Shown here piece after piece: positions 6,275 to 35,727 of a stretch of DNA of 35,727 bases. The number at the start of each line of letters is the position of its first letter. Position 1 is the stretch's first letter. The notes beneath the pieces were generated by a model that worked only from the letters and a program-made list of their open reading frames with translations, made no database searches and was not told the origin of the DNA. A program made the position numbers and the translations under genes. The stretch is from positions 1 through 35,727 of the forward strand of contig CANCPA010000024.1 of the NCBI GenBank assembly GCA_947379895.1. Reading direction: 5' to 3'. The DNA is from Chitinophagaceae bacterium (GTDB lineage Bacteria; Bacteroidota; Bacteroidia; Chitinophagales; Chitinophagaceae).

Positions 6275-6304
6275 TTAGTATGATTGTTCTATTGCGTAAT
6301 CTAG

Positions 6305-6392
6305 GTTAAACGACCCTAACCACTGTGGTCGTCATGTTGACCATAGGAGACATCTCATCGGAAATAGTCCACGTCATATTTAGAAAAATAAA
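6305..6392. repeat. Dispersed repeat R1, copy a
   Basis: gttaaacgaccctaaccactgtggtcgtcatgttgaccataggagacatctcatcg...cgtcatatttagaaaaataaa; near-identical copy at 6500-6588. Confidence 0.9.
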
Positions 6393-6499
6393 TTGAGCAA
6401 CTTTAATTTATCCAATAGGTCCTTTTTGATCAATTGAGAATCGTCTATTCGAATGGTTCAGCAGACATGCCTGAAATAAATGGGAATAAAGTGTTGTCA

Positions 6500-6588
6500 G
6501 TTTAAACGACCCTAACCACTGTGGTCGTCATGTCGACGATAGGAGACATCTCATCGAAAATAGTCAACGTCATATTTAGAAAAGTAAA
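6500..6588. repeat. Dispersed repeat R1, copy b
   Basis: gtttaaacgaccctaaccactgtggtcgtcatgtcgacgataggagacatctcatcg...cgtcatatttagaaaagtaaa. Confidence 0.9.
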
Positions 6589-8254: not shown

Positions 8255-8346
8255 TTTAATTTTAATTGTGTAATAATTTTGTTTAATTAATCTAATAATC
8301 CATCAATTTTAACCAGTTTTCTTCATTATCCTCCAATTTTGACCTC

Positions 8347-8599
8347 TTCCCAGTAACCTTGAGAGGCGTCCCAGATAGGTTTGTAGTCATTCCAGTTAAC
8401 TCGTGTAGCATTCCAACAAAGGTTAGGGGCGTCCCAGTAACCTTTGACTTCATTCCAGACGCTTTTAACCGCATTCCAGGAACTTTTAGGGGTTTCCTTG
8501 TTGCATTTTATTTGCATTCCAGTAACCTTGTGGGTCATTCCAGTAACGGTGTTAGGCAATCCAGCTACTTTGTGGGACATTCCAGAGCGTTTGTGGTGA
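8347..8599. repeat. Degenerate 21-bp tandem array B (12 units, consensus near ATTCCAGTAACCTTGTGGGGC)
   Basis: ttcccagtaaccttgagaggc / gtcccagataggtttgtagtc / attccagttaactcgtgtagc / attccaacaaaggttaggggc / gtcccagtaacctttgacttc / attccagacgcttttaaccgc / attccaggaacttttaggggt / one 22-bp unit / attccagtaaccttgtgggtc / attccagtaacggtgttaggc / aatccagctactttgtgggac / attccagagcgtttgtggtga. Confidence 0.93.
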
Positions 8600-8662
8600 A
8601 TTTTTTGAAGATAATAGTCTAACATCACAGACCTGTATTGCTAACCTTCAACTTCGTAAACT

Positions 8663-12904: not shown

Positions 12905-13070
12905 AAATGATTGAGTATTTTTTTGTAGAGTCTTGTTGAATCTAAATAATAGGCCATTCTTGATTTTTGAAGATTCTTTCGGAGTTTTTTAAATAAACTG
13001 CGAAATTTGAGTAGGTGCATAGTTAGTTTTTATTCAGTAGATAATAAATTATCTCTTGTTCTGTTTAATC

Positions 13071-13322
13071 ATTTCTGTAAAATTATAGCTCATTTCTCAA
13101 AGTTCGAACCTCTTTTCTTGAAGTGCTATCCATTTTTCTCGAACTTCCAACTCCATTTCTTTAAGTACTACATGCTTTGAGTGAACTCCTATAGTCATTT
13201 CTTAAACTCCCAATCATTTTTCTCAAACTTTCAACCTCATTTCTTTAAGTGCTAACCCCATTTCTCTAGGGTCGAACTCCATTTCTCTAGGGTCGAACTC
13301 CATTTCAATTCAGTTTGTTTAC
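13071..13322. repeat. Degenerate 21-bp tandem array C (12 units, consensus near ATTTCTTTAAGTCCTAACTCC)
   Basis: atttctgtaaaattatagctc / atttctcaaagttcgaacctc / ttttcttgaagtgctatccat / ttttctcgaacttccaactcc / atttctttaagtactacatgc / tttgagtgaactcctatagtc / atttcttaaactcccaatcat / ttttctcaaactttcaacctc / atttctttaagtgctaacccc / atttctctagggtcgaactcc x2 / atttcaattcagtttgtttac. Confidence 0.93.
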
Positions 13323-13435
13323 GTAAAATTTATAAATATTTTGTTTCAAAACTTTTTCTTTTAGTTAGTTGAAAATTTTAATCTCTTCTTATGTCTCTGA
13401 CACTTACATTTGCGCGATTTTATTTTTAAGATATT

Positions 13436-15082
13436 ATGCCTAAAGACAATTCAATTAAGTCAGTACTTATTATTGGTTCAGGTCCAATTATCATTGGACA
13501 AGCGTGTGAATTTGATTATTCTGGTACTCAGGCTGCCCGTAGTTTGCGTGAAGAAGGAATAGAAGTGATACTCATTAATAGTAATCCCGCTACTATTATG
13601 ACGGATCCTATGATGGCCGATCGGGTTTACCTACTCCCTCTGAATACAGAAAGTATTGAAAAGATACTGCAGGAAAATAAGATTGATGCAGTATTGCCAA
13701 CTATGGGGGGACAAACTGCTCTGAATCTTTGTAAAGAAGCAGAAGAGCAAGGTATTTGGGAGCGTTACGGGTGTAAATTGATAGGAGTAGATGTTGCTGC
13801 AATTGATACAGCTGAAGATAGGGAGAAATTTCGTCAATTAATGGTTAAGATTGGTGTAGCTGTAGCACCTAGTCATGTGGCAAATAGTTTTTTGGAGGGA
13901 AAAGAGTTTGCACAAAAAATTGGATTCCCATTAGTTATTCGTCCTTCATTTACACTTGGTGGTACAGGTGGGGGATTTGTACATAACAAAGAAGAGTTAG
14001 ATGCTGCACTTGAAAGGGGCTTGAAAGCGAGTCCAATTCACGAAGTATTAGTGGAAAAGGCAGTATTAGGCTGGAAAGAATATGAATTGGAATTATTGAG
14101 GGATAAAAATGATAATGTGGTTATCATTTGTACGGTAGAAAATTTGGATCCAATGGGTGTTCATACAGGAGATAGTATTACTGTTGCTCCTGCAATGACG
14201 CTTAGTGATACTGCATTTCAGGATATGCGAAACAAGGCAATGTTAATGATGCGTAGTCTTGGCAATTTTCAAGGTGGTTGTAATGTTCAGTTTGCATTAA
14301 ATCCTGAAACAGAAGAATTGATTGCTGTAGAAATTAATCCTCGGGTTAGTCGTTCTTCTGCATTAGCAAGTAAGGCAACAGGGTATCCAATTGCCAAAAT
14401 TGCCGCTAAATTAGCAATAGGGTATTCTTTAGATGAATTGAAGAATCAGATTACTCAAACTACTTCTGCCTATTTTGAACCTGCATTAGATTATGTAATC
14501 GTAAAAATTCCTCGATGGAATTTTGATAAGTTTAAAGGTGCTAATGATACACTCGGATTACAAATGAAGAGTGTAGGTGAAGTAATGGCAATTGGAAGAA
14601 GTTTTAATGAAGCACTTCAAAAGGCTTGTGTAAGCTTGGAAAATGATGCATTAGGATTGGGCTATTACGGTAAGAGTATGATGAAGAGTGCCGAAATAGT
14701 TGAATATATCAAGACTCCAAAGTGGGATAGGATTTTCAGAATTAAAGATGCCTTGATGCAAGGTTCAACTATTAAAAGTATTGCACAAGCAACAGGAATA
14801 GATCGTTGGTTTTTATATCAAATACAAAAACTTTGTGTCATTGAAAAAGAAATAGGATTGTATCGTTTAGATACTCTTCCTGAAGATTTATTGAAAGATG
14901 CTAAGAAGAATGGGTTTAGTGATGCACAGATTGCAAAGATTCTTCAAGGAAATTATAGTGACGAGCAGGTGTATGAAAAGCGAAAGAGTCTTGGCATTAC
15001 AAGGGTATATAAAATGGTAGATACTTGTAGTGCAGAATTTGAAGCAAAAACGCCTTATTTCTACAGTACTTTTGAAAATTAG
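13436..15082 (+). CDS. carB: Carbamoyl-phosphate synthase large subunit, N-terminal half only
   Basis: [51 protein letters not shown]...; ends at [21 protein letters not shown], the junction between the two internally duplicated halves of CarB. Confidence 0.93.
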
Positions 15083-15273
15083 GAGTAATTATCGAGAGAA
15101 TATTGCATTTTTATACTTTTTTTTAATGAAAATGAAAAATTAATTATTTTTTTTTCATTTTGTTAAAAAAAAATTGAATGGAATAATATTTATTACTTAA
15201 CATTGCATCCTGAAAAGATATTTTTTAGGGTTGCTTTGTCGCCAAAGTATAACGTTCCTTATAACATAACATT

Positions 15274-21986: not shown

Positions 21987-22841
21987 TTATTTTTCTACGT
22001 CAAGCCTTTTTAAAAGGTCAGCAATAATTTGATTCTTTTCGTTTAATTCGTGATTCTTTTCGTTCAATTCCTGATCTTTTTCATTCAATTCTTTCTTGTA
22101 TTTCTTTTCCTTGTCTTCAAACATGGCATTTACAGTTCTCCATGCTTCTTGTTCTGTCTCAATCATCTTCTTTTCTTTGGGGTCAGTACCTGAATAATGT
22201 AGAATATCTGTCATAATCTTTACTTCTTCAATATCTGCAGTATGAATGAATTCTTTGATGATCTTTTTGTCGTCCACAAAGTTTGACTGTTCAAAAACGC
22301 TTAATAGCTTATCAAGTTTAGTTGAGTACCTATCAGTAATTCGTTCTACCTGAACTACATAGCTGTCGTGAGTCAACTTCTCAACAAAGTCGCTTTTGGT
22401 CTCAAGAAATATTTTATTAATAAGGTCTTTGTATTTCCTTTCCACCTTAATGCAAGGTGTCTCAATTTTAGGTAATTTGAACCCTAAAATATAGATGGTT
22501 GTAATGGGAAGTGCCACTTTCTCGTCATTAATCGTGTCTTCTTTTTTATAATGTTCAGCAAGGTAGTTCCTAAAGCGCATCACATCAATCTCATTCTTTG
22601 CCTTTTGAATTTCTATCAATACTTTTTTGTATTCACCTGTTTCAGTTTTAATGGTTGCAATAAAGTCGAGTCTAAAAACGGCAAGCCCTGCAAGTTCGTC
22701 CGTGTATGTAAATTCTTGTGGTTTAACTTCTACGTTTTCTATTGTCTGTTCAAGGAGTGTTCCGATAAAGAATTTGGCAACTTTATCATTCTCCATCATT
22801 CTTTTGAATACCACATCGTATATTGGATTTGCAATTACCAT
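21987..22841 (-). CDS. PD-(D/E)XK nuclease family (Rpn-like recombination-promoting nuclease/putative transposase)
   Basis: NPIYDVVFKRMMENDKVAKFFIGTLLEQTIENVEVKPQEF...FRLDFIATIKTETGEYKKVLIEIQKAKNEIDVMRFRNYLAEHY; C-terminal heptads ELNEKDQELNEKNHELNEKNQ; ORF opens at 22886. Confidence 0.85.
   Translation of the reverse strand: MVIANPIYDVVFKRMMENDKVAKFFIGTLLEQTIENVEVKPQEFTYTDELAGLAVFRLDFIATIKTETGEYKKVLIEIQKAKNEIDVMRFRNYLAEHYKKEDTINDEKVALPITTIYILGFKLPKIETPCIKVERKYKDLINKIFLETKSDFVEKLTHDSYVVQVERITDRYSTKLDKLLSVFEQSNFVDDKKIIKEFIHTADIEEVKIMTDILHYSGTDPKEKKMIETEQEAWRTVNAMFEDKEKKYKKELNEKDQELNEKNHELNEKNQIIADLLKRLDVEK
22030..22092. repeat. Coding 21-bp tandem repeat (3 units) in the C-terminus of the Rpn-like nuclease
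   Basis: tgattcttttcgtttaattcg / tgattcttttcgttcaattcc / tgatctttttcattcaattct. Confidence 0.9.
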
Positions 22842-22967
22842 TTTTTTATTTTTAATGAGGCAAAGGTATAGGGAATAAAGGGGCACTCCTAATGTTAAGG
22901 TAACAAAAGTGGAATCATTGTGTATGTATTATTAGGGATTTTTTTTTATTTTAATATAATGACTATG

Positions 22968-33538: not shown

Positions 33539-34831
33539 TTAATTTGAGCTAACCGGGTTAATGCTACTTAAAGTCGCATTTGATTCTACAGGAACTTTAC
33601 CTTTTTTGTTGTAAGAAACCCAATATGAAACAAGAATGCAACTTATAAAAGGTGACGTGTAAAACAAATACAAATAAGGGACATCAACAAGCGTATAAAA
33701 AACAACTAAAGTTAGTTTTAAAGCTGCCAAAGGAATATTGTGTAAAATGATTTCCTTTTTTCTATAATTAATCCAAGCGCAAATAAGCACAAATAGCATT
33801 GGAACTACAAAGGAAAGTGTGACTAAAGAATAGTGTTGCAAGGCAATGTGATTAGGTCCGAAAAATCGGGCAAAGCCTAAACTTATTTCAAATACATGCG
33901 GACCATCATGCCAAACTCTTCTAGCAAAATCAATGTAGGCACCAGGCAAATTGATAAAGCTATTAAGTATTGACCATCCAAATGGCATTAATACCAATAA
34001 GCAAAAACAAGCGATACCACTAATTTTCAAATGTAACCATTGCTTTCTTTTCCGCTGTACATATAATAATATTAGCATAGCAGGTAACCATCCAATTAGT
34101 GCATAGCGACTAAGAAGACAAAAACAGGCAGCTGCGCCAATAAATAGATAGTTTTCGCTAAGTAATGCTATTGTAAGCCATACATAGTTAATAATTACAA
34201 CACCTTCTTCAGTATAGGGTACTAAACCTGCCGAGTCATTTGTGAAGAGCCACCAAAAAAGCATGAAAACAGCTACTTTATAGGTAAGTGAAAGTCGTCT
34301 GCTAGCAAAAGGATTCCAAAGAAGAATCGCAAGCGAAAAGGCAAGAAATAATGCAGTAATAGTAATCCAACGGATATCAATGTGTAACCATTCGGCCACA
34401 CTGAATGGAAGCCACATCGCTGGTAGGTAAATTGGTTTAACACCCTGCCAAATATTTGGGATTATATCATATACCTTTTCCCAATGTCCCTCTACAAAGC
34501 GTTGACTCATTACTTTGATAATTGGCAGCATATCTGAATCATGAAAATCGAGTGGTGCATCCTGCATGAATATTATTCCAAAATGGCACATCATTACACC
34601 CATAATCGCTATAGCCGAGAATTTGTATCCATTAAATGTGTCAGTGAAAAATTCTTTTTTGGGTAATGTTAAGTGTGATTGGGGAAGAAATAGTACCGCA
34701 ATTGCTATTGAAATCCCACTGATAAAATATAAAATACTAGAAAATGCAGCAAGTTCTGAAAATGAAAGCAGATAGGTGCAACTCAATATTTCTAAAAAAA
34801 ACGCAGCAGTTAAAATTCTTTTTTGTAGCAA
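33539..34831 (-). CDS. Polytopic membrane protein, possibly GT-C type glycosyltransferase
   Basis: 430 aa with many hydrophobic segments; loop MQDAPLDFHDSDMLPIIKVMSQRFVEGHWEKVYDIIPNIWQGVKPIYLPAMWLP. Confidence 0.65.
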   Translation of the reverse strand: MLQKRILTAAFFLEILSCTYLLSFSELAAFSSILYFISGISIAIAVLFLPQSHLTLPKKEFFTDTFNGYKFSAIAIMGVMMCHFGIIFMQDAPLDFHDSDMLPIIKVMSQRFVEGHWEKVYDIIPNIWQGVKPIYLPAMWLPFSVAEWLHIDIRWITITALFLAFSLAILLWNPFASRRLSLTYKVAVFMLFWWLFTNDSAGLVPYTEEGVVIINYVWLTIALLSENYLFIGAAACFCLLSRYALIGWLPAMLILLYVQRKRKQWLHLKISGIACFCLLVLMPFGWSILNSFINLPGAYIDFARRVWHDGPHVFEISLGFARFFGPNHIALQHYSLVTLSFVVPMLFVLICAWINYRKKEIILHNIPLAALKLTLVVFYTLVDVPYLYLFYTSPFISCILVSYWVSYNKKGKVPVESNATLSSINPVSSN

Positions 34832-35030
34832 AGTAGTCTTTTCAATTAGTTAATAGAAAATGTTAATGCAAAAAGCATACTCAATTCTTAAAATCGAAGC
34901 TTTTTTTCAATTATTGCTAAAATAAGTAAATATTAGATTATTAAAAAATATTTAATTCAATCAAATAATTCATAAATCAATTTCGTAAGGTTCTGTGGTT
35001 TGCCTGTTTTAAAAGAATACAAGAAGGGAA

Positions 35031-35282
35031 GTTGCTGACGCTAACACTTTAGCATCTAACGTTAATACAAAAGTTGCTGACGTTAACACTTTAGCATCTA
35101 ACGTTAATACAAAAGTTGCTGACGCTAACACTTTAGCATCTAACGTTAATACAAAAGTTGCTGACGCTAACACTTTAGCATCTGACGTTAATACAAAAGT
35201 TGCTGACGCTAACACTTTAGCATCTGACGTTAATACAAAAGTTGCTGACGTTAACACTTTAGCATCTGACGTTAATACAAAA
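35031..35282. repeat. Array E: six near-identical 42-bp units (2 x 21 bp)
   Basis: gttgctgacg[c/t]taacactttagcatct[a/g]acgttaatacaaaa x6; the two 21-bp halves match at about 12 of 21 positions. Confidence 0.97.
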
Positions 35283-35429
35283 GTTGTGATATCTAACCTT
35301 TTTTAGGAAAATTAGTGTATTTGATTTCTGCGTAGGACAAAACTAGAATCATCGCTACAAATTTGTTTTCTGCAGTACCATTTTATTTATCAAACCTATT
35401 TTTTACCAAAATAATAAAAATAAAGTAAT

Positions 35430-35466
35430 GGAAACTTTGGTAACGTAAAAAGTTTCCGTAGTTTCG
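35430..35466 (+). promoter_or_regulatory. Bacteroidota-type promoter overlapping a dyad operator upstream of the TetR gene
   Basis: TTTG (35436-35439), 19-nt spacer, TAgtTTCG (35459-35466); dyad GGAAACTTT (35430-35438) / AAAGTTTCC (35449-35457). Confidence 0.65.
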
Positions 35467-35482
35467 CAGCTGATTATTAACA

Positions 35483-35727
35483 ATGGAAATACAAGAAAGA
35501 ATAGTAGTAAAAGCACATGAATTATTTATGCGATATGGCATCCGCAGTATCAGCATGGATGAGATTGCGAGTACTCTTGGGATTTCTAAAAAAACTATCT
35601 ATCACTCCTTCAAAGATAAAGATGCGCTTTTAGATAATGTACTTGAAATTGAAATGAACAGAAGGGAATGTAATTGTTCAAAGACAAAGGAGATTTGTGA
35701 AAATGCTGTACATGAAATATTTCTAGC
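35483..35727 (+). CDS. TetR/AcrR-family transcriptional regulator, truncated by the window end
   Basis: MEIQERIVVKAHELFMRYGIRSISMDEIASTLGISKKTIYHSFKDKDALLDNVLEIEM: canonical TetR HTH. Confidence 0.9.
   Translation, partial: MEIQERIVVKAHELFMRYGIRSISMDEIASTLGISKKTIYHSFKDKDALLDNVLEIEMNRRECNCSKTKEICENAVHEIFL

Follow-up and report, generated by a model that had tools for sequence, protein, structure and literature searches.

The window analysed here, a stretch of 35,727 nucleotides, is an entire contig, and for this reason the gene at its right-hand end is cut: only the N-terminal part of a TetR-family regulator is present (35483–35725, plus strand; Pfam TetR_N, 1e-13). TetR orthologues occur in 12 of 13 genomes of the genus. 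Just upstream of the gene, an alignment of nine species reveals an inverted repeat at 35430–35457, GGAAACTTT-N-AAAGTTTCC (also given as GGAAACTTTGGTAACGTAAAAAGTTTCC then TAGTTTCGC), which is likely a TetR autoregulatory operator overlapping the promoter, a role that we infer. Further out, about 200–450 bp upstream of the TetR start and outside this inverted repeat, lies the tandem repeat studied here, array E (35029–35286). On its far side is a divergent membrane-protein-like gene (33539–34831, minus strand), for which no Pfam match was found and which has different neighbours in seven relatives. The source genome is a Chitinophagaceae MAG, probably from fresh water. The relatives carrying the gene that flanks array E are Chitinophagaceae MAGs too, and we read their isolate names as suggesting lakes and reservoirs.

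The original prediction described array E as six near-perfect 42-bp units, each a diverged dimer of 21 bp, with only two variable positions. TRF bears this out, reporting 6.1 copies of a 42-bp period with 98% matches, no indels and a score of 481, far above any other array in the window. Read one by one, the six units show exactly the two variable sites and the order of haplotypes that had been proposed (c-a, t-a, c-a, c-g, c-g, t-g). Within the unit, the halves AAAGTTGCTGACGYTAACACT and TTAGCATCTRACGTTAATACA are identical at 12 of 21 positions, a similarity reached by 0.28% of shuffles (p=0.0028). With head-to-tail tandem units in the range of ~10–100 bp by TRF, array E has the form of a VNTR or minisatellite, and the proposed recent block duplication is supported. 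The array is single-copy in its own 5.3-Mb genome (G000); no copy of its unit was found in viral contigs, and Rfam models gave no match up to E=1 against positions 34800–35727.

Array E is not the only repeat of its kind, and TRF found further period-21 stretches in the same window. These include a degenerate array of about 20 units at 79–592 (also recovered by lag analysis), an array at 8335–8605 and a third at 13045–13379, upstream of carB. Separately, the window holds a near-duplicate at 6304–6582, TTAAACGACCCTAACCACTGTGGTCGTCATG...GACATCTCATCG, whose copies lie about 200 bp apart. Defining a period-21 segment by a self-identity at lag 21 of at least 55% over 105 bp, and counting in sampled stretches rather than whole genomes, we found 31 segments in 815 kb of the own genome; 590 kb of congeneric genomes added 30, for a total of 61 in 1.41 Mb of the genus or about one per 23 kb. 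Under the same criterion, 313 kb from 17 other Chitinophagaceae genera contained none; G034, a genome of a different genus, has four in 40 kb. Control lags returned no segment at lag 20, and two and three at lag 22. Extrapolated, these counts amount to roughly 200 such arrays per genome in most species of the genus, with a patchy distribution (none in 64 kb of G005 and one in 76 kb of G008). Array-bearing gaps are long, with a median of about 535 bp, and most separate codirectional genes. An array marks the end of a contig 7 times where ~2 would be expected (p=0.0035), which fits assembly trouble caused by repeats or by strain variation.

Whether array E is a gene was the next point on which the original prediction could be judged. 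As predicted, the plus-strand frame through the array (35013–35306) is open and has no ATG; it comprises 97 codons with a stop at the end, and GTG and TTG are also missing before the last codons. The reading that this frame encodes a repeat protein, a heptad peptide VADANTLASNVNTK, draws on the length of the frame and on weak, sub-threshold Pfam matches to DUF948 and Laminin_II; coiled-coil-like repeats often give weak matches of this sort. It is countered by the missing start codon, by the two variable sites, both of which are non-synonymous in this frame (A/V and N/D), and by the opposite strand, which is open as well: an 82-aa frame at 35009–35257 on the minus strand has its GTG start only inside the repeat. 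Furthermore, when codon-position bias was tested on 76 arrays of the class, p≤0.05 was obtained in just 2.6%, and open frames crossed 30 of them where 33 were expected, so that stops are not avoided. Because there is neither a codon-position signal nor stop avoidance, the 21-bp class is non-coding. We accordingly judge both frames across array E as non-coding and consider a repeat-protein gene highly improbable; a heptad-repeat peptide is thus not supported. By eye, the short ORFs that span some class arrays have no N-terminus in common.

Three repeats that touch on reading frames were seen alongside. A 100-aa ORF with W-N heptads and no Pfam match (8326–8628, minus strand) reads through the 21-bp array at 8335–8605 and could either be open by chance or encode a genuine small protein. 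A period-21 repeat at 22030–22091 lies within the C-terminus of a transposase-like ORF (21987–22886, minus strand), where it codes for a stretch of the heptad KNHELNE. In a dehydrogenase E2-like protein (L079:15834–17060), the linker is a 7-aa repeat, QQPATSN, made of 7-bp repeats, an exception of a related kind inside a real gene.

The preferred repeat length extends beyond the 21-bp segments themselves. Across 1.58 Mb, TRF assigned a multiple of 7 as the period to 82% of the intergenic arrays (154 of 188), namely 7 (6 arrays), 14 (42), 21 (60), 28 (3), 35 (1), 42 (19), 63 (12) and 84 (11). Periods of 19, 20 and 22 account for just 4, 2 and 6 intergenic arrays, and none of 31–32 bp was seen. 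Arrays inside genes differ from the intergenic ones in having mixed periods. Diverged 7-bp repeats are abundant (L011:17500–17570, L014:10125–10318, L017:12307–12498 and 14979–15140, L074:11105–11295), and several of the 7-bp arrays are built as two halves in inverted orientation, which would fold into long hairpins, possibly terminators.

These periods recall the heptanucleotide direct repeats of Beggiatoaceae, cyanobacteria and some Bacteroidetes, which have a fixed motif, TAACTGA, near start codons (PMC4679880). Both kinds are intergenic and tandem and share a preference for sevens; in contrast to the published repeats, the units here measure 21 or 42 bp, with a motif that differs from array to array. 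One could therefore read the 21-bp step as a three-fold, higher-order form of the heptamer class, given that 7- and 14-bp arrays are plentiful in the same genomes and that every frequent period is divisible by 7. However, 21-bp units lack internal 7-bp similarity (lag-7 z=-2.6), so the idea that they are heptamer trimers finds no support, and we regard this derivation as distinctly unlikely.

Comparison between species shows how quickly the arrays change. Past the inverted repeat upstream of TetR, period-21 arrays are present in five species, namely G000 (array E), G002, G003, G004 and G006, and represent four unrelated motifs, sharing being confined to G003 and G004. The copy-number variability that had been anticipated for array E is seen at this same promoter between those two species, with ~5 units in G003 and ~15 in G004, between flanks that are 77–80% identical. 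The remaining TetR orthologues with enough upstream sequence have no array or, in G011, a weak signal only. At a second site (L011), upstream of an asparaginyl-tRNA-synthetase-like gene, the own genome carries ACTTATAAGTTAAGCGACGCA and the sister species G009 carries AATCACCGTACGCAAATTCCA in the same gap. One edge unit of the own-genome array resembles the G009 motif in inverted orientation and looks like a relic of the other motif. Turnover between species is thereby demonstrated at two 21-bp sites. At a third site, both genomes hold heptamer repeats that differ in sequence and length. The array at carB is found in the own genome and is missing from that site in the nine other species checked.

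The motifs of most arrays are unrelated to one another: only 22 of 3240 pairs of unit profiles exceed the null maximum, and some of these are one array sampled twice or arrays picked by similarity. Within arrays, units differ from their own consensus by about 30%, and the similarity of 0.65 between neighbouring units declines to 0.45 at a distance of ten units, as expected from local duplication followed by drift. On average the units are also dyad-symmetric. More specifically, the unit consensus resembles its own reverse complement beyond the level of flanking 21-mers (p=3e-6), 43% of arrays fold within the lowest 5% of column-permuted versions (mean z=-1.7, the strands being alike), and some arrays, for example that of G002 at TetR, contain inverted units in register. 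Array E's own self-complementarity was not significant in either the dyad or the folding test. An apparently strong RNA fold on its minus strand (z=-4.4 against dinucleotide shuffles) was set aside, since column permutation, which keeps the repetition, gave p=0.10.

A length of 21 bp corresponds to two turns of the DNA helix. The arrays could hence be functional DNA, such as rows of protein sites or bent segments placed two helical turns apart, in which the register is selected and the motif drifts. This explanation would account for the unit length, the average dyad symmetry, the near absence of 20- and 22-bp arrays and the recurrence of arrays upstream of TetR in five species. It is harder to reconcile with motifs that are swapped between species despite flanks ~80% identical, as a dedicated binding protein would be expected to allow slower change, with the several TetR orthologues whose upstream sequence has no clear array, and with a carB array in one of ten species checked. 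Periods of 31–32 bp are whole helical turns too and were not seen. Nor is a scarcity of indels, as selection on register would have it, proven. In a first count on class arrays, substitutions outnumbered register shifts by more than 300 to 1, but a power test showed that this method detects just ~29% of inserted indels. A more sensitive aligner yielded 74 shifts per 3903 differences, some of them probable edge artefacts, compared with about 24 substitutions per shift in two non-array intergenic alignments. Strong indel exclusion was therefore dropped, the controls having shown that the count varies with the aligner, and for the same reason we do not claim that the register is under selection. 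All in all, we hold functional DNA to be unlikely, if still worth entertaining.

The arrays might also be products of a mobile or reverse-transcribing element of the REP/RAYT, retron or DGR kind. The dyad symmetry of many arrays would suit such an origin, as would a 3.3-kb segment that G000 and G009 share at 99.7% identity and that overlaps one array. This stretch (L167:1658–4944 in G009:C133; L168:2215–5501 in G000:C119) has internal repeats and is likely a recently shared mobile element, the two genomes being otherwise ~81–88% identical. Separately, dispersed, MITE-like repeats of ~165 and ~100 bp (L179:5330–5496 and L179:9676–9779) occur in many copies in both G000 and G009. Against such an origin, the presence of reverse transcriptases or Y1 transposases does not track array abundance among the genomes compared. 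For Y1 transposases, array-poor G005 gave 7 matches and array-rich G009, which is 67% complete, gave none, and reverse transcriptases are present in G005 and G008 and absent from array-rich G001, G004, G006 and G009. Motifs are mostly not common to different arrays, and a linked Y1 transposase with a shared palindromic motif, the mark of REP/RAYT systems, was not found. We consider an origin of this kind very unlikely.

We rather think that array E is a tandem array of satellite-like character, young and non-coding and one of a genus-wide class, and on the present evidence this is probably the case. In our reading it was amplified recently, by a satellite-like process with fast turnover and a fixed step of 21 bp. 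More specifically, a pre-existing 21-bp array, or a 2 × 21-bp piece, would recently have been amplified in 42-bp blocks, probably with one or two adjacent units copied by replication slippage or template switching. At each intergenic site one variant unit would be amplified, with the older ones degenerating towards the edges of the array and later giving way to a new variant; motif and copy number would thus shift between species, and what stays is the site and its 21-bp step. Array E would represent a fresh stage, and the arrays at 79–592, 8335–8605 and 13045–13379 older ones; the earlier suggestion that it shows, at a younger stage, the process that gave rise to the window's other 21-bp arrays is supported. 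As the driver we infer slippage or template switching, helped by hairpin-forming units and mostly mutational rather than selected, although the lack of significant self-complementarity in array E itself counts against this account.

Slippage alone leaves unexplained why 21 bp is favoured over any other length. The step could come from a span of two helical turns, from slippage based on heptamers or from a length-measuring protein. For the favoured 7-bp length of heptanucleotide repeats, slippage set by polymerase contact has been proposed in work cited by PMC4679880. A bolder version, which we would put forward only tentatively and think improbable, is that DNA is amplified by dedicated, sequence-indifferent machinery whose step is fixed at 21 bp (or at 7 bp and its multiples), the period being inherited and the sequence not.

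Among known systems, Borg tandem repeats behave most like this class. They are likewise pervasive, site-specific, fast-evolving, in many cases intergenic and near-absent from relatives (PMC9879509), and the arrays described here are site-unique and fast-evolving too. Borg repeats consist of perfect copies with variable unit lengths, about half lie in genes, and 14–38% of intergenic lengths are divisible by three (PMC9879509); unlike them, the 21-bp class has diverging units, lengths locked to 21 or 7n and a mostly intergenic location, and belongs to a bacterial genus. With bacterial VNTRs or minisatellites the class shares near-identical head-to-tail units and copy numbers that shift between lineages, but here a single period predominates throughout the genome and one motif gives way to another at a given site. 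Tandem, dyad-symmetric units are also known from PARCEL repeats, which, however, code for a 25-residue protein motif (PMC2996958); the arrays here are non-coding, with a 21- or 42-bp unit. In lake planctomycetes, structural variation has been described at intergenic tandem repeats (PMC9426551). Searches of the open-access literature, including for 21-bp repeats in Bacteroidetes, returned no description of such a class, which speaks only weakly for novelty because nothing beyond open-access work was covered.

The unit lengths of tandem repeats ordinarily vary widely, and what the repeats share is an ancestry of sequence. Here, it is the length that is conserved, over hundreds of unrelated sequences, and the sequence that is replaced between sister species. 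With length constant and sequence replaced, the question of where a preferred repeat length comes from can be put to a direct test, and the arrays provide many candidate fast-changing loci for freshwater bacteria.
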